DNA of 64,000 nt, from positions 1 through 64,000 of the forward strand of contig DUPY01000056.1 in assembly GCA_012838065.1 (NCBI GenBank), written 5' to 3'. The position numbers and the translations under genes are program-made. Position 1 is the first letter of the stretch, and the number at the start of each line of letters is the position of its first letter. The DNA comes from Acholeplasma sp. (lineage in GTDB: Bacteria > Bacillota_I > Bacilli_A > Acholeplasmatales > Acholeplasmataceae). Of the stretch, positions 30,918-39,259 are shown piece after piece. The notes beneath the pieces are model-generated. The model saw nothing but the letters and a program-made list of their open reading frames with translations, did no database searches and had not been told where the DNA came from.

Positions 30918-31634
30918 ATGCTATCAAAGAACTATCTTGAAACTTTTTATATAAATGATGAATCAAAAACAACGATTTTAATCATTCCTGGTGGCGGCTA
31001 CGCCTTCGCATCAAATCGTGAAGGTACACCAGTAGCTAAAATGTTTAATAACTGGGGGTATCATGCGATTGTGTATAGATATCGAAATACATTACTTCTT
31101 TATCCAGAGATTTATACAGAAGCAAAACAATTTATTGATGAAATTATAAGTGACAGCCATGTTAAAGACTTAATCATTATCGGATTTTCTGCTGGCGGAC
31201 ATATGGCAAGTTATTTACTTACACAACACAAGGAATCATTTAAAGCTGGGATTTTAGCTTATCCAGTTATTTCAAGCAATCCTTTAATAAGTCATAAAGG
31301 TAGTTTTGATAATTTATTAGGTTCAAACGATGAGGTATTAAAAGAAAAAGTTTCTACAGAAAACTTAATTACCGAGCATATGCCACCAATTTTTATTTGG
31401 CATACGGCAACAGACAAAAGTGTTCCTGTAGAAAACAGCCTAATTTTCTATCAAAACTTACTTAAAAAGAATAACCGGGCAGAACTTCATATTTATGATG
31501 TAGGCGAACATGGATTATCTATTGTTACAGAGGAAGTCTCGCCAGAACATATTAATCCTAAGGACTTTGTTGTTCAAAATAAACATGTTTCAAATTGGAC
31601 ATGTTTATTAAAAGATTGGCTAAAATCACTTTAA
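30918..31634 (+). CDS. alpha/beta hydrolase, acetyl-esterase type
   Basis: A 238-residue cytoplasmic alpha/beta hydrolase of the BD-FAE/acetyl esterase type. The oxyanion motif is IIPGGGYAF near residue 26, the nucleophile is the Ser of GFSAGGH, the acid is likely the Asp of TATDKSVP, and the base is the His of GEHGLS. Such enzymes remove short acyl or acetyl groups from sugars or small esters. CAGGGAG precedes ATG 30918. It is a single gene after the tuf terminator; no clear promoter was found. Confidence 0.82.
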   Translation: MLSKNYLETFYINDESKTTILIIPGGGYAFASNREGTPVAKMFNNWGYHAIVYRYRNTLLLYPEIYTEAKQFIDEIISDSHVKDLIIIGFSAGGHMASYLLTQHKESFKAGILAYPVISSNPLISHKGSFDNLLGSNDEVLKEKVSTENLITEHMPPIFIWHTATDKSVPVENSLIFYQNLLKKNNRAELHIYDVGEHGLSIVTEEVSPEHINPKDFVVQNKHVSNWTCLLKDWLKSL

Positions 31635-31728: not shown

Positions 31729-32487
31729 ATGATTGACACACATGCACATTTAAATATTGAAGACTTTGACCAAGATATCAATGAAGTTATTGAAAGAGCT
31801 AAACAAGCAAAACTTTCGAAGATTATCGTTATTGGTATGGATGAAGCGTCAAACAAAAAAGCGATTGAACTTGCAGAAACATACGATCTAATTTATGCAA
31901 CTGTGGGCATACATCCTGGATACTTACTTAACAGTAATGTAAGCTCTATTGAAAAGTTTTTAAGTCATCCTAAGGTTGTAGCTATCGGTGAATGTGGTAT
32001 TGATTTGTATTGGGATACAAGTAATGTATTAAATCAAAAAGCTATTTTCAAGCAACAAATTGAATTGTCAGAAAAATATCAACTACCTCTTGTTATTCAC
32101 ACAAGAAACTCATTTACAGAAGCCTATGATCTTATTAAACCATTCAAAGGAAAAGTGACAGGTGTCTTTCATTGTTTTAGTTCAAACTTAGAAGATGCCA
32201 AAAAGGCAATTGACTTAGGGTTTTATATTGGAATTGATGGACCAATCACATTTAAAAAAAACGATGTCTTAAAAGAAATTATTGAAGCGATTGATTTAAA
32301 ACATATATTAATTGAAACAGATAGTCCATATATGGCTCCTACGCCATATCGTGGTAAACGAAACGAGCCGAGTTATTTACCTTTCATTGCGGAAAAAATA
32401 GCTGAGATTAAGCATATTTCCGTCGATGAAGTTATACATATAACAAAAATGAATAGTTACAAGCTATTTAAAAAATTGGAGGGTTAG
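31729..32487 (+). CDS. tatD: TatD-family metal-dependent deoxyribonuclease
   Basis: A 252-residue TIM-barrel hydrolase. Metal-binding motifs: DTHAHL (3-8), GECGID, VIHTRNS, FHCFS and ETDSPYMAPTPYRGK. TatD enzymes are 3'-5' DNases acting in DNA repair or turnover. AAGGTGATAGG precedes ATG 31729. The lipoprotein gene begins 2 bases after its stop, so the two are cotranscribed. Confidence 0.93.
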   Translation: MIDTHAHLNIEDFDQDINEVIERAKQAKLSKIIVIGMDEASNKKAIELAETYDLIYATVGIHPGYLLNSNVSSIEKFLSHPKVVAIGECGIDLYWDTSNVLNQKAIFKQQIELSEKYQLPLVIHTRNSFTEAYDLIKPFKGKVTGVFHCFSSNLEDAKKAIDLGFYIGIDGPITFKKNDVLKEIIEAIDLKHILIETDSPYMAPTPYRGKRNEPSYLPFIAEKIAEIKHISVDEVIHITKMNSYKLFKKLEG

Positions 32488-32489
32488 AT

Positions 32490-35072
32490 ATGAAAAAAAC
32501 ATTGAGAGTATTCATCTTTTTAAGCTTAGCAATTCTACTTACAGCATGTGACTTTCTAAAGGTTATTCCTCCAATAACAAGACCGAAAGTTGAGTTAGAT
32601 ACATATGAAGCAACAACCGAATATGAAGAACGTGTTATGGAAGTTACAGAAGCTCTTTCTAAATACAACTTTATCGTAACAAATGGTACGAGTAAATACG
32701 CTTCAGCAACCATTATCGATAAAACAAGAAAAGATAACTTTTCTCATGTGTATACGTTTGTGACAACAAGTGAACTTGTAAGTAAGCCAAGTGATGTACA
32801 AAATTTAAAAATTGATTACCCACTTAAATTAAAAACTTTTAATGTGGATAGTTATGTTATTGGCACACTTGATAATGTTATGTTTTTAAGAATTGTCACA
32901 ACGGAAGATCTTGAGTTGCCAACATTTGAAAAAGAAAGTTATTATGAGGCTATAAAAGGGCAAACAGTTTTATCAGTTGGCACACCTTACAGCCAGCCCC
33001 GTTACAGTAATTATATAAACGAGGGTATTATTAGTGATTATAGCAAAACAGATGGCATTCAAGTAAAACTTACAAGTGATATTGCAAGTAATTATGGTAA
33101 CGGTGGTAGTGGCGTATATGATTTAAATAACCAACTCATCGGTATTATTACTGCAAGAGGCGCTATTACAAGTTCATTCGGTACAGAATATGCCAGCGAG
33201 GGAACTACGATTATTACAACAATGAACGCTATTTTTCAAAGTTATGCAAAATTAGATGATAATGATTTTGTAAAAACAAATACGTTTGAAGAAAAAGAAT
33301 CGATAACCATTTCAAATATATTAGGTCATATAAAAACATATGAAAGCCAAAGTTTGTATGAACAAAAAGTAATTGAAACAACTGAAGATATTCAAAATCA
33401 TGCAGTTGTTATAAACTATACAACAGGTATCCGAACGGGTGTTATATACAAAAAAGAAACGTTACCGTCAAATAACCATATGTATTATGTTGTTTCTTCA
33501 AACTTTGAAATTGATAATAGTATCGTAAAAAATGCAAAAATTGAGGCGAATGGAAAGCAGTATACCATTCAAGATTATGTAATTTATAAACTGTATAACA
33601 TTATCGTATATCGATTTAAAACAGAAGATATTTTAAATATTACAGAACTAAAAACATCAAGTACTGAAGGTATTGAAATCGTACAAGGGCAAACCGTCTT
33701 AAGTTTAGGTACGCCACTTAATACGCAAAAAGATGCGAATTATGTATCCAAAGGTATCCTAAGTAAACATAATGTTTTAAGTAATCAAAGCTTATGGAGT
33801 CATGATGTGGCTGTTAATCCGTCGATGTATGGTGCACCGCTATTTAATTTAAATGGCGAGTGGATTGGTATAAATTTCTCAAAAGTTAATAACTTAAAAA
33901 CAAGCGTTAATGATTCAAACTTTTATGCAGAGGGCTTGACGTACGCAGTTAGTGCAAATGTGCTGGGTCCTGTCTTAAATTCATTAACGGACTTTGATTT
34001 TTTAAATTTAGATATATTTTTACCAAACATAAAAAATGATGTAGTCGATTTTAATCATGAGACCTATATTCCATATGAAAGTCCTATAGACCATGAAAAA
34101 GCAATTATTGGTGTACTAAGTGATGTCTATGGTGCAACCGTTGCTGTAAGTGCATCCTCAAGTCATGGTTCAGGTGTTATCTACAAAAAAGAGGCACGAG
34201 AAGATGGTGGTTTCTATTATTATGTAGCAACAAACTACCACGTTATCGATAATGCTGTTTCCATATTAGGTGTTGCGAGTTCAATTACTATTTTCTTAGG
34301 TAATGAAATGGGAACGATTGAAGCTATTGGTTATACTGGAGAAAAAACATACGATATCGCATCACTTAAAATTACGACACGTCATGAACTTGATGTATTA
34401 GACATTAAAGAAAATCGTGAAATTAAACAGGGACAAACGATTATCTCACTAGGATCCCCATACGATTACACACTCATGTTTAACCATGCATCTGTTGGTG
34501 TAGTATCACTGGATTCTTACGATTATGATGATATTACAAATCTTACATATATGCAGGATAGTAGCATTAATCCTGGTAATAGTGGGGGCCCATCCTACAA
34601 CTTAAAAGGTGAGTTGATTGGACTAAACGTTGCTAAACTTACTTCAAGTAGAGGCTATTATAACGAAGAAATTCCTGCTTTAGGACTTGGATACACATTA
34701 AATATGCATGTTATAGGACCGAAATTAAACAATTACTTACTGTATAATTCAGTGGAAATTAAACCTAGATTAGGTATTACGGTTCAAAATATTGAAACAT
34801 TTAAAGTGCTTAATACAGGTAAAGATATACCTGAAGATGCTACGGAAGGTGTCGTTGTTATTGATGTGGATATTAATCGTGGTGCTTTTGGGTACTTACA
34901 TGAATATGATTTAATTACCCATATTGATGGAACAAAGATCGTTAATATTGATTCTCTTGGATTGCTTCCACCATTCAAATGGGATCAAGTAGCCAAAGTT
35001 ACAGTCGTTCGAAATGTTAATGGTGAGTTTATTACAATGGAAGTTATGGTGCATGTGACTTGGAGCGATTAA
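32490..35072 (+). CDS. lipoprotein with three trypsin-like domains (only the third catalytic) and a PDZ domain
   Basis: An 860-residue surface lipoprotein: basic N-terminus, hydrophobic core and lipobox LLTAC with lipidated Cys20. Three HtrA-like trypsin folds follow, at about 45-250, 285-500 and 535-745, then a PDZ domain (about 757-855). Domain 3 has an intact triad: His584 (NYHV), Asp622 (YDIASLKI) and Ser698 (GNSGGP). By alignment with it, domain 1 has Leu96, Asn129 and Gly205, and domain 2 has Phe339, Asn370 and Tyr447. Both are therefore inactive protease folds, perhaps for substrate binding or inhibition. A GGAGGG precedes ATG 32490. The end overlaps the CinA-like gene by 13 bases. Confidence 0.85.
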   Translation: MKKTLRVFIFLSLAILLTACDFLKVIPPITRPKVELDTYEATTEYEERVMEVTEALSKYNFIVTNGTSKYASATIIDKTRKDNFSHVYTFVTTSELVSKPSDVQNLKIDYPLKLKTFNVDSYVIGTLDNVMFLRIVTTEDLELPTFEKESYYEAIKGQTVLSVGTPYSQPRYSNYINEGIISDYSKTDGIQVKLTSDIASNYGNGGSGVYDLNNQLIGIITARGAITSSFGTEYASEGTTIITTMNAIFQSYAKLDDNDFVKTNTFEEKESITISNILGHIKTYESQSLYEQKVIETTEDIQNHAVVINYTTGIRTGVIYKKETLPSNNHMYYVVSSNFEIDNSIVKNAKIEANGKQYTIQDYVIYKLYNIIVYRFKTEDILNITELKTSSTEGIEIVQGQTVLSLGTPLNTQKDANYVSKGILSKHNVLSNQSLWSHDVAVNPSMYGAPLFNLNGEWIGINFSKVNNLKTSVNDSNFYAEGLTYAVSANVLGPVLNSLTDFDFLNLDIFLPNIKNDVVDFNHETYIPYESPIDHEKAIIGVLSDVYGATVAVSASSSHGSGVIYKKEAREDGGFYYYVATNYHVIDNAVSILGVASSITIFLGNEMGTIEAIGYTGEKTYDIASLKITTRHELDVLDIKENREIKQGQTIISLGSPYDYTLMFNHASVGVVSLDSYDYDDITNLTYMQDSSINPGNSGGPSYNLKGELIGLNVAKLTSSRGYYNEEIPALGLGYTLNMHVIGPKLNNYLLYNSVEIKPRLGITVQNIETFKVLNTGKDIPEDATEGVVVIDVDINRGAFGYLHEYDLITHIDGTKIVNIDSLGLLPPFKWDQVAKVTVVRNVNGEFITMEVMVHVTWSD

Positions 35073-35518
35073 TTTTAGATAAACTTATTAAAAATAATGA
35101 GAAGATTATGTTTGCTGAAAGCATGACCGGTGGAAGAATTACAGCAAAATTAGTCGAGGTAGAAGGGGCTTCTAAAGCAGTTTTAGGCGGGATTGTATCT
35201 TATAACGAATCTATCAAAAAAGTGTTGTTAGATGTAGATTCGAAAACAATAACAGAAGACTCAGTTGTAAGTAGTTCGGTTGCTTTACAGATGGCTCGTG
35301 GGCTATTCAAATATGGTGCAACCATCGGTGTAGCGATTACTGGAAATGCTTCAAAAAATACGCAAAAAAATAGCGAAAGTTTTGTTGCATATATCGCAAT
35401 AGCGACAAAGGAAAAAGAAGTTGTTCGCTATCTTAAATTTTTAAGTAAAAACCGTAAGAGAAATATTAAGTATGCAACAAAAGTAGTATTTGAAACACTT
35501 TATCAATTTTTAGACTAA
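35060..35518 (+). CDS. CinA C-terminal domain protein, nicotinamide-nucleotide amidase type
   Basis: A stand-alone CinA C-terminal domain (PncC family) of 152 residues. AESMTGG (about 19-25) keeps the active Ser but has Met where most members have Cys, followed by GGIVSYNESIK and VAITGNAS. PncC deamidates NMN to NaMN in pyridine nucleotide recycling. The start is TTG 35060 inside the end of the lipoprotein gene; the next candidate, ATG 35108, would remove the first helix of the domain. The N-terminal molybdopterin-binding-like half of full CinA is absent, as in PncC. Confidence 0.82.
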   Translation: MERLILDKLIKNNEKIMFAESMTGGRITAKLVEVEGASKAVLGGIVSYNESIKKVLLDVDSKTITEDSVVSSSVALQMARGLFKYGATIGVAITGNASKNTQKNSESFVAYIAIATKEKEVVRYLKFLSKNRKRNIKYATKVVFETLYQFLD

Positions 35519-36820: not shown

Positions 36821-39259
36821 ATGAAACGATTAATACCATTTTTTACAGCTTTGATCATTTTAGCCTTGGCTGTTTATTTTAATTATGAATATTTAACAAA
36901 TTTAATTAACAATAGTGAGACGTTCATTCGTACAGCTATTGTTTTTGGTGCTTTAATCTTATTTGTTACAAGTTTCTTTTATATTTTCACATACAACCAA
37001 GCAAAAAGAATTAGGACTTTAAACAACCGTTTGTCCATGTGGACGGAACTTTCATACCATGTGAACCAAGTAGGTGATGAAGTATTTAACGAACTTCCAA
37101 TTGGTATTGTTGCATTTGATGAACATAAAGAAATTAAATGGGTAAACCCACATGCGAAAGTTATTTTTAACGATCAAAAATTAGTCGACAAATATTTAAG
37201 TGACATTAATGAAGAGTTGTATCAAGTTGTTCTAAATAAAAATGAGAACGCAATGGTTGAAATTGAATCAAACATCTATGACGTCATTATTAAAGAAGAA
37301 TACAACTTCATGTACTTATTTAATGTAACCGACCGTGAACTTGTTCGTAGAAAAGCAACAGAACAAACAATTTCACTTGGTATTGTTTATCTAGATAATT
37401 TAGACGAATCACTATCCAGCATGGACGTCAGTGATCAGTCGAGTTTAAAAGGTGAGTATTTAGGTGCGATTAACGACTGGATTGATAAATATGAAGGTTA
37501 TCTAAAACCATTTAGCGAGGGCCGCTTAATTTTTATTACAACACGCAAAAATTTAGCGAAAATGATTGCGGATAAGTTTGATATTTTAGATACGATTCGT
37601 AACATATCACAACTACACGAAGTTCGTGTAAGTTTGTCCATTGGTGTTGCTTGTTGGGATGTACCAATGATTGAACTTGGCGTTTACGCACAAAATGCTG
37701 TTGAACTCGCAGAAAAACGTGGTGGTGACCAAGTTGTCGTAAATATCCAAAATGAAAAAATAGCGTATTTTGGTGCGCGTTCAGATGCAAGTGAAAAGAG
37801 TTCTCGTGTAAGTGCGCGTATCAATGCACAAACGATTAAACAATTAATTGAACAGTCATCAAATGTCTTTGTTATGGGGCATAACAACGCCGATATGGAT
37901 GCATTTGGTTCAATGCTTGCAATGTATCATATGGCACAAAGTTATAAAAATCATGTGTACATGGTTTATGATAAAGAGCGTCTAGATACAACGGTTTCAA
38001 AAGTTGAAGCACTTGTTTTAAAAGAAAATCCCGAAATTTTAGAAGATGCAATCAATAGCGAAGAAGCATTAAAGCGAATGAATGACGACAGCTTACTTAT
38101 CGTTGTTGATACACAATCACCAAAGATTGTTATGAGTCCAAAAGTTTTGGAAAAATCAAAACGTACGATTGTTATCGACCATCATCGAATTGGTGACGAA
38201 GTCTTTAATGCGATTTTTACTTACATCGAACCATACGCATCATCGGCAATTGAACTTGTCGTAGAACTTTTAAACTTTATTGAAAAAACAACAGATATTA
38301 CGCCACTTGAAGCATCCATCATGTATGGTGGTTTAGTCTTAGACACAAATTCATTTACAACACGAACAGGGACAAGAACATTTGAGACAGCTTATAAACT
38401 TAGAGAACTTGGTGCAGATCCAAGCTTAGTGAAAACATGGCTAAGACGTGATTTGCTTCGTACATTAGAAATAAATAAATTACTTAGCCAAATTGAAATA
38501 TACAACGATAAATACGCATTTATCTTAGCAAAAGATATTTATGATGACCGTGTATTACTTGCACAAGTCAGTGATGAAGCCTTGCTTATTAGTGGTATAG
38601 ATGCAGCATTTACAATCGCTCAAATGGCAAACGGAGTTATTGGTGTGAGCGCAAGATCATACAACAAAGTAAATGTCCAAGTACTTATGGAAGCAATCGG
38701 CGGCGGTGGACATTTAAGTAGTGCCGCAGCCCAAGTGACTAACGACACAATTGAAGGTGTTTTTGAAAAAATTAAACATTTTATAGATTTAGAATACGGC
38801 GAAGGAGATAGCACTATGAAAGTTATATTATTAGAAGATGTTAAAGGTAGAGGTTCAAAAGACCAAGTTATTGAAGTAGCAAGTGGCTATGGTCAATTTT
38901 TAATTACACAAAAGAAAGCCTTACCAGCTACAGATGAAAATCTAGAAGTTTTAAGAAAAGCTAAAGCTGAAGAAGAATTACAAATTCAAAAGCATTTAGA
39001 GTTAATGAAAAAGTTAAAATCAGAAATTGATGGAAAAACAGTAACATTAACAATTCAAACAGGCCAAGATGGAAAAGCATTTGGTTCAATTACTACGAAA
39101 AAAGTTGTAGAAGCATTTGAAGAACAAAACAACATTTTATTAGACAAGAAAAAAGTAGAATTATCAAGTGAAATTAACTCCGTTGGTATTTATACGGCAA
39201 ACGTTTATTTACATAAGGATGTAAAAGCTCAATTCGAAGTACATATCATTGAAAAGTAG
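36821..39259 (+). CDS. gdpP: GdpP-type cyclic-di-AMP phosphodiesterase fused to ribosomal protein L9
   Basis: One uninterrupted 812-codon frame. Residues 1-665 are GdpP: two membrane helices (about 5-25 and 36-60), a PAS-like segment (80-165), a degenerate GGDEF domain (RGGDQVV near 308) and the DHH-DHHA1 phosphodiesterase. The DHH part has GHNNADMDAFGS, VDTQSP, IDHHRIG and GGGGHLSSAA. It degrades c-di-AMP at the membrane. From Met666 the frame continues as complete L9 with no stop codon between. Bacillus has the same genes as separate neighbours (gdpP-rplI-dnaC). The weak GGAGTT is 33 bases before ATG 36821, so the start is less secure than the frame. Confidence 0.9.
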   Translation: MKRLIPFFTALIILALAVYFNYEYLTNLINNSETFIRTAIVFGALILFVTSFFYIFTYNQAKRIRTLNNRLSMWTELSYHVNQVGDEVFNELPIGIVAFDEHKEIKWVNPHAKVIFNDQKLVDKYLSDINEELYQVVLNKNENAMVEIESNIYDVIIKEEYNFMYLFNVTDRELVRRKATEQTISLGIVYLDNLDESLSSMDVSDQSSLKGEYLGAINDWIDKYEGYLKPFSEGRLIFITTRKNLAKMIADKFDILDTIRNISQLHEVRVSLSIGVACWDVPMIELGVYAQNAVELAEKRGGDQVVVNIQNEKIAYFGARSDASEKSSRVSARINAQTIKQLIEQSSNVFVMGHNNADMDAFGSMLAMYHMAQSYKNHVYMVYDKERLDTTVSKVEALVLKENPEILEDAINSEEALKRMNDDSLLIVVDTQSPKIVMSPKVLEKSKRTIVIDHHRIGDEVFNAIFTYIEPYASSAIELVVELLNFIEKTTDITPLEASIMYGGLVLDTNSFTTRTGTRTFETAYKLRELGADPSLVKTWLRRDLLRTLEINKLLSQIEIYNDKYAFILAKDIYDDRVLLAQVSDEALLISGIDAAFTIAQMANGVIGVSARSYNKVNVQVLMEAIGGGGHLSSAAAQVTNDTIEGVFEKIKHFIDLEYGEGDSTMKVILLEDVKGRGSKDQVIEVASGYGQFLITQKKALPATDENLEVLRKAKAEEELQIQKHLELMKKLKSEIDGKTVTLTIQTGQDGKAFGSITTKKVVEAFEEQNNILLDKKKVELSSEINSVGIYTANVYLHKDVKAQFEVHIIEK
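38816..39259 (+). CDS. rplI: 50S ribosomal protein L9 (C-terminal part of the GdpP frame, probable internal start)
   Basis: Residues 666-812 of the fused frame are a full-length 147-residue L9: MKVILLEDVKGRGSKDQVIEV, the GYGQFLITQKKAL segment, the long helix, and the C-terminal domain ending QFEVHIIEK. GAAGGAGA at 38801-38808 lies 7 bases before ATG 38816, a strong ribosome-binding site inside the coding sequence. L9 can therefore be made separately as well as in fusion. L9 binds 23S rRNA and helps keep the reading frame. dnaB begins 9 bases after its stop. Confidence 0.85.
   Translation: MKVILLEDVKGRGSKDQVIEVASGYGQFLITQKKALPATDENLEVLRKAKAEEELQIQKHLELMKKLKSEIDGKTVTLTIQTGQDGKAFGSITTKKVVEAFEEQNNILLDKKKVELSSEINSVGIYTANVYLHKDVKAQFEVHIIEK

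Follow-up and report, generated by a model that had tools for sequence, protein, structure and literature searches.

HtrA/Deg proteases, such as DegP, DegQ, DegS and HtrA1–4, make up MEROPS family S1C. Their classical members have a single protease domain in each polypeptide and form trimers from separate chains, the trimer being the functional unit (PMC3640471). The 64,000-nucleotide stretch of DNA analysed here, from a wall-less Acholeplasma sp. (contig DUPY01000056.1), hereafter the window, encodes a lipoprotein that has three such domains instead, two of them inactive. The question raised by this locus is what two dead protease domains do in a chain of a trimeric family, and in particular whether the trimer may have been moved into one polypeptide. 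The locus comprises the following features:

31729-32487 (+), tatD-type nuclease gene, 2 bases upstream of the window htrA and part of the slot tuf-tatD-[HtrA]-cinA
32490-32549 (+), lipoprotein signal peptide, residues 1-20, lipobox LTAC, lipidated Cys20 predicted from sequence
32604-33263 (+), domain 1, dead trypsin-like, about residues 39-258; E95 (or L96)/N129/G205, with Asp197 and Asn201 kept; from Trypsin_2 and alignment
33264-33332 (+), linker 1 between the domain limits, about residues 259-281; low pLDDT near mature residues 241-259
33333-33989 (+), domain 2, dead trypsin-like, about residues 282-500; F339/N370/Y447, with Asp439 and Asn443 kept; from Trypsin_2 and alignment
33990-34073 (+), linker 2 between the domain limits, about residues 501-528; low pLDDT at mature residues 486-498
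34074-34757 (+), domain 3, intact HtrA protease domain, about residues 529-756; H584/D622/S698, NPGNSGGP; interface residues Asp690 and Asn694
34758-35069 (+), single C-terminal PDZ domain, about residues 757-860; PDZ_2
35060-35518 (+), cinA-C-type gene, overlapping the 3' end of the window htrA and forming the other flank of the slot

Gene, domains and family membership

The window protein is encoded by an open reading frame of 860 codons for amino acids (32490-35072, +) that starts with ATG behind the Shine-Dalgarno sequence GGAGGG. Its signal peptide, MKKTLRVFIFLSLAILLTAC, ends in the lipobox LTAC with Cys20, and the genome encodes both LspA and Lgt, as is characteristic of bacterial lipoproteins; the lipobox Cys is also present in the single-domain homologues that we inspected. 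The gene lies in an operon-like run of tuf, an esterase-like gene, tatD, htrA and cinA, with rpsF and ssb further on in conserved order. The second gene of this run, between tuf and tatD, encodes an esterase/Peptidase_S9-like alpha/beta hydrolase (30918-31634, +); in two relatives (G021 and G022) the tuf-tatD interval holds a different gene, and in several others it holds none.

Searching the window genome, which is 98% complete and consists of 67 contigs, with the Pfam model Trypsin_2 gave three matches. All three fall within the window htrA, so that within the reach of this model the organism has no other HtrA-type protein. One other PDZ-containing protein was found in the genome, a 510-residue frame with two adjacent PDZ matches (G000:C65:468-911, −), whose size and PDZ pair would suit an RseP-type site-2 protease.

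On the full chain, Pfam finds three Trypsin_2 stretches (8.6e-35 in total). Each third also exceeds the family cut-off when cut out alone (6.9e-7 for domain 1, 6.8e-10 for domain 2 and 3.1e-15 for domain 3), so that the repeats are not due to chance, and the three trypsin-like domains that the original prediction described are borne out. The repeated QGQTVLSxGxP segments, one of the signs of common origin named there, are located at residues 156, 399 and 647. Triad positions were read from an alignment of 40 domains. Domain 2 carries F339, N370 and Y447 exactly as claimed, and His584, Asp622 and Ser698 of domain 3 form the only intact triad, followed by the PDZ domain. In domain 1, Asn129 and Gly205 stand, but the His position aligns to E95 rather than to L96 as first read; the difference of one residue is within alignment uncertainty, and neither residue is a His.

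Domain 3 combines the triad with the GNSGG loop (NPGNSGGP) typical of the S1C family, and matches DegQ, MucD and HtrA2 in the PDB by sequence and HtrA proteases by fold in Foldseek. The C-terminal PDZ domain completes the likeness: its PDZ_2 match is weak (E 1.6e-4, under the Pfam cut-off), although the same region is over the cut-off in both full-length Haploplasma-group orthologues and, in the window model, has the expected strands and helices. A single protease domain per chain is usual in HtrA/Deg proteins but not required by their definition, because Deg7 has two. None of the HtrA types named in NCBIfam (DegP, DegS, DegQ, HhoA and others) was reached; the best, degP_htrA_DO, scores 143.8 bits where its cut-off demands 416. 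Judged by its sequence, the window protein is thus a divergent member of the HtrA/Deg family that belongs to none of the NCBIfam named types.

Conservation of the dead domains among relatives

Within 88 genomes of the family Acholeplasmataceae, members of many genera were examined at this slot. A query with the window protein alone recovered no related loci, and one with an alignment yielded named relatives. Its commonest content is one active HtrA lipoprotein with a PDZ domain, of about 360-400 residues. These single-domain Acholeplasmataceae proteins share the slot and the lipobox with the window protein and are 34-40% identical to its domain 3 plus PDZ over the mature chain, but have just the one active protease domain. 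Three-domain homologues, a search for which the original prediction had proposed, exist with the same dead-dead-active-PDZ order. The form occupies the same slot in three Haploplasma-group genomes: G014 (812-residue frame, single-contig genome), Haploplasma modicum ATCC 29102 (825-residue frame) and the Acholeplasma sp. MAG AS08, where a contig edge cuts the gene and domain 2, domain 3, PDZ and the end of a domain 1 are visible. The window protein is 28-31% identical to those of G014 and H. modicum, with 19-21% in domain 1, 27-31% in domain 2 and 31-35% in domain 3.

Other arrangements occur in the same slot. Strain zrk7 has a two-domain fusion, dead then active. In the genus coded g2, each of the seven genomes examined at this slot (7/7) has two adjacent lipoprotein genes, one for a dead protein of 230-268 residues without PDZ and one for an active partner with PDZ. 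The dead proteins have Trp, Asp or Tyr at the His position and Leu or Ile at the Ser position. Their genes are:

L034:5347-6141, L070:3413-4183, L071:2575-3342, L072:5361-6050, L073:3338-4138, L074:3094-3894 and L075:5638-6441, g2 dead pseudoprotease genes, each directly before the active HtrA gene

A fourth three-domain protein, of 1204 residues, comes from a second family of the order (G147, L118:3960-7571). Its triad positions read E/G/L, R/K/I and H/D/S, and its order is dead-dead-active followed by PDZ, as in the window protein. This lipoprotein carries Listeria-Bacteroides repeats ahead of the three HtrA domains and lies in a different gene neighbourhood. Single-domain HtrAs of the same family occupy the tuf-tatD-X-cinA slot too, and the slot is therefore older than both families. 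Two overlapping samples, one of 395 genomes from the class and one of 392 from the phylum, contained no further three-domain case among the best matches listed. Long open reading frames in G181 and G241, considered as multi-domain candidates, each hold just one protease domain. Tandem HtrA pairs also occur in other families (L127-L131), and every copy read there looked active by eye from its GNSGG and His motifs.

These comparisons bear on whether domains 1 and 2 are simply functionless, decaying copies left by a degenerating tandem duplication. Both have lost their triads, and domain 1 is the most divergent domain, as decay would have it. Against this, open frames of about 800 residues are conserved across widely diverged genera, and every homologue shares the layout of inactive and active parts: in all those read in the slot, the extra domain or extra protein lacks both His and Ser and the triad of the partner is complete. 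Homologues with intact triads in the extra domains, which the original prediction had named as the sign of decay, were looked for, and none was present among the homologues read. In one close species pair of g2 (G005/G006), where the genes are separate, dN/dS is 0.119 for the dead gene and 0.112 for its active partner, an equal constraint. For fusions of the window type, the case against decay is the conservation of frame and residue pattern over deep divergence. Together, these observations support conservation of the two dead domains by evolution, and we regard decay as very improbable. An assembly artefact or chimera, which the fragmentation of the window genome might suggest, is hardly credible at all given the same architecture in the single-contig genome G014 and in H. 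modicum ATCC 29102.

Interface residues, predicted structure and assembly

To see what has been conserved, we counted residue retention over the nine fused dead domains at columns that are conserved in single-domain enzymes. Several glycines are kept in 9/9, and so are just two other residues, those at the positions of Asp690 and Asn694, at −8 and −4 relative to the catalytic Ser. The Ser673 position is Ser or Thr and the hydrophobic position of beta9 is hydrophobic in all nine. The catalytic residues, by comparison, are gone: His is found in 0/9, Asp at the Asp622 position in 1/9 and Ser in 0/9. In crystals, the −8 residues Asp258 of Deg5 (catalytic Ser266) and Asp284 of Deg8 (catalytic Ser292) form hydrogen bonds with beta9 of the adjacent protomer; the trimer contacts given for Deg8 also include Asn288, at −4, and the beta9 contacts are Ser237 and Leu231 in Deg5 and Ser263 and Leu257 in Deg8 (PMC3640471). 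Residues were matched to those of Deg5 and Deg8 through their fixed spacing from the catalytic Ser of GNSGG and through the GxxS motif, without structural superposition. The pattern supports the view that the dead domains lost the triad yet kept residues matching the Deg5/Deg8 trimer interface. All three domains of the window protein retain these residues.

The mature window chain was modelled with AlphaFold2 from 22 aligned mature sequences, three of which have three domains, one of those truncated by a contig. The model has a pLDDT of 80.1 and a pTM of 0.84, a value that with three comparable domains means a confident prediction of how they are placed relative to one another. For the H. modicum orthologue, the same sequences gave a pLDDT of 76.2 and a pTM of only 0.45, with the domains folded individually; this is the value expected for well-folded modelled domains whose arrangement is unsure. 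Foldseek, comparing chain with chain, matched HtrA proteases, with a high rmsd over the protease-plus-PDZ stretch. Full-chain prediction, proposed originally as a check, thus yielded a fixed arrangement for the window chain but not for its orthologue. Trimer-like packing of the three domains of the window protein is supported as a likely arrangement.

We think it rather likely that the window protein is a single-chain HtrA pseudo-trimer, lipid-anchored and surface-exposed, with one active site, as was originally predicted. Conservation, the interface residues, the pTM of 0.84 and the presence of lgt and lspA speak for this reading, and the orthologue's pTM speaks against it. The obligate trimer of a lipid-anchored, surface-exposed S1C protease would have been moved into one polypeptide, in which domains 1 and 2 would be pseudoprotease subunits filling both neighbour positions and domain 3, followed by the sole PDZ domain, would be the sole catalytic subunit. 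Misfolded envelope and secreted proteins would be degraded or processed outside the membrane by one active site per assembly. The dead neighbours would hold domain 3 in place and possibly activate it allosterically; in HtrA1, activation passes between neighbouring subunits via loops L3 and LD (PMC5666011). The L3 Arg of cross-subunit activation in DegP and HtrA1 was not evident when the alignment of the window protein's family was read. Trimer-like packing within the chain, proteolysis by domain 3 and a role in quality control are what we infer for the window protein.

The main rival is an intermolecular assembly like that of plant Deg7, in which the dead domains would oligomerise separate chains, for example three chains in stacked trimeric rings with three active sites. 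In Deg7, an active protease domain is joined to a degenerate one that is reported to mediate trimerisation (PMC3473262). Retention of interface residues in domain 3 and in both dead domains would be just as natural if the dead domains of different chains formed trimers, the low pTM of the H. modicum orthologue fits such an assembly, and the two-domain form of zrk7 is at odds with a strict rule of three domains per chain. On the other hand, the fusion of three domains is spread over three genera from two families, the matches listed in the genomes searched include no chain with a fourth HtrA domain, and a single window chain reaches a pTM of 0.84. We consider this assembly unlikely, if still the most serious competitor. 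Less likely again is that the dead domains are independent modules, strung like beads outside any trimer, that bind a substrate, ligand or metal or serve adhesion. HtrA-type pseudoproteases have gained binding roles, as MamO has for metal (PMC4794232), and the dead domains vary more than domain 3, as the identities for domains 1 and 3 given above show. Glycines aside, however, the residues under the strongest constraint in the dead domains are the trimer-contact Asp and Asn, and the overall arrangement of the window model is confident.

Origins of the fusion and known systems

In the domain trees, the fused domains 1 and 2 group together, weakly (89/75), and the g2 dead proteins form a clade of their own (100/99) beside their active partners. 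Domain 1 of zrk7 falls near zrk7 domain 2 and single-domain enzymes, also weakly. Because of these groupings, the trees suggest that dead domains were recruited repeatedly; AU tests do not reject one origin of the dead domains, and long branches are involved. In the species tree, the window genome may or may not be sister to the Haploplasma group, one clade not being rejected (p-AU 0.30 against it). The chances seem to us about even that the HtrA trimer was internalised into one chain in the Acholeplasmatales, possibly more than once, by way of homotrimer, separate dead and active pair, two-domain and finally three-domain fusion. The outcome would be an HtrA with a single active site and its subunits locked in order, the neighbours serving only as scaffold and allosteric partners.

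Parts of this picture have precedents. In plant Deg7, too, a protease domain was duplicated and fused, and one copy then lost its triad (PMC3473262), but the protein has two protease domains, active first and degenerate second, and four PDZ domains, whereas the window protein, a lipoprotein, has three, the active one C-terminal, and one PDZ. MamE/MamO and the duplicated MamE pairs of magnetotactic bacteria, in which separate genes for active HtrA and pseudoprotease evolved repeatedly (PMC4794232), resemble the g2 pairs; they differ as separate proteins with metal binding and a TauE-type domain and without fusion. Animal polyserase-2 also has three serine protease domains per chain of which only one is active (PMC1435904), but is a relative of matriptase and prostasin rather than an HtrA, has its first domain active instead of the last, and has no PDZ described. 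Double domains, separate pairs and triple chains of other proteases are thus known already; in the part of the literature that we searched, no description of a three-domain single-chain HtrA or of Acholeplasma HtrA architecture was found, and within that scope the three-domain single-chain HtrA is apparently new.

Work on HtrA activation deals with signals passed among the identical subunits of a trimer, so that the contribution required of any one neighbour is difficult to isolate. If the window protein is a natural trimer in one chain with a single active site, its two inactive neighbours could be mutated separately, and each position could be tested alone. Together with relatives that have separate dead genes or two-domain fusions, it would illustrate how a homo-oligomer can become a hetero-oligomer with its subunits ordered in one chain.

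A different fusion lies further along the window. A single open reading frame of 812 residues (36821-39259, +) encodes a GdpP-type cyclic-di-AMP phosphodiesterase (PAS, GGDEF, DHH and DHHA1) together with a complete ribosomal protein L9. The same GdpP-L9 fusion is present in strain MO-XQ (L038, 814-residue frame), and the corresponding neighbouring frames in other relatives are similar in size.
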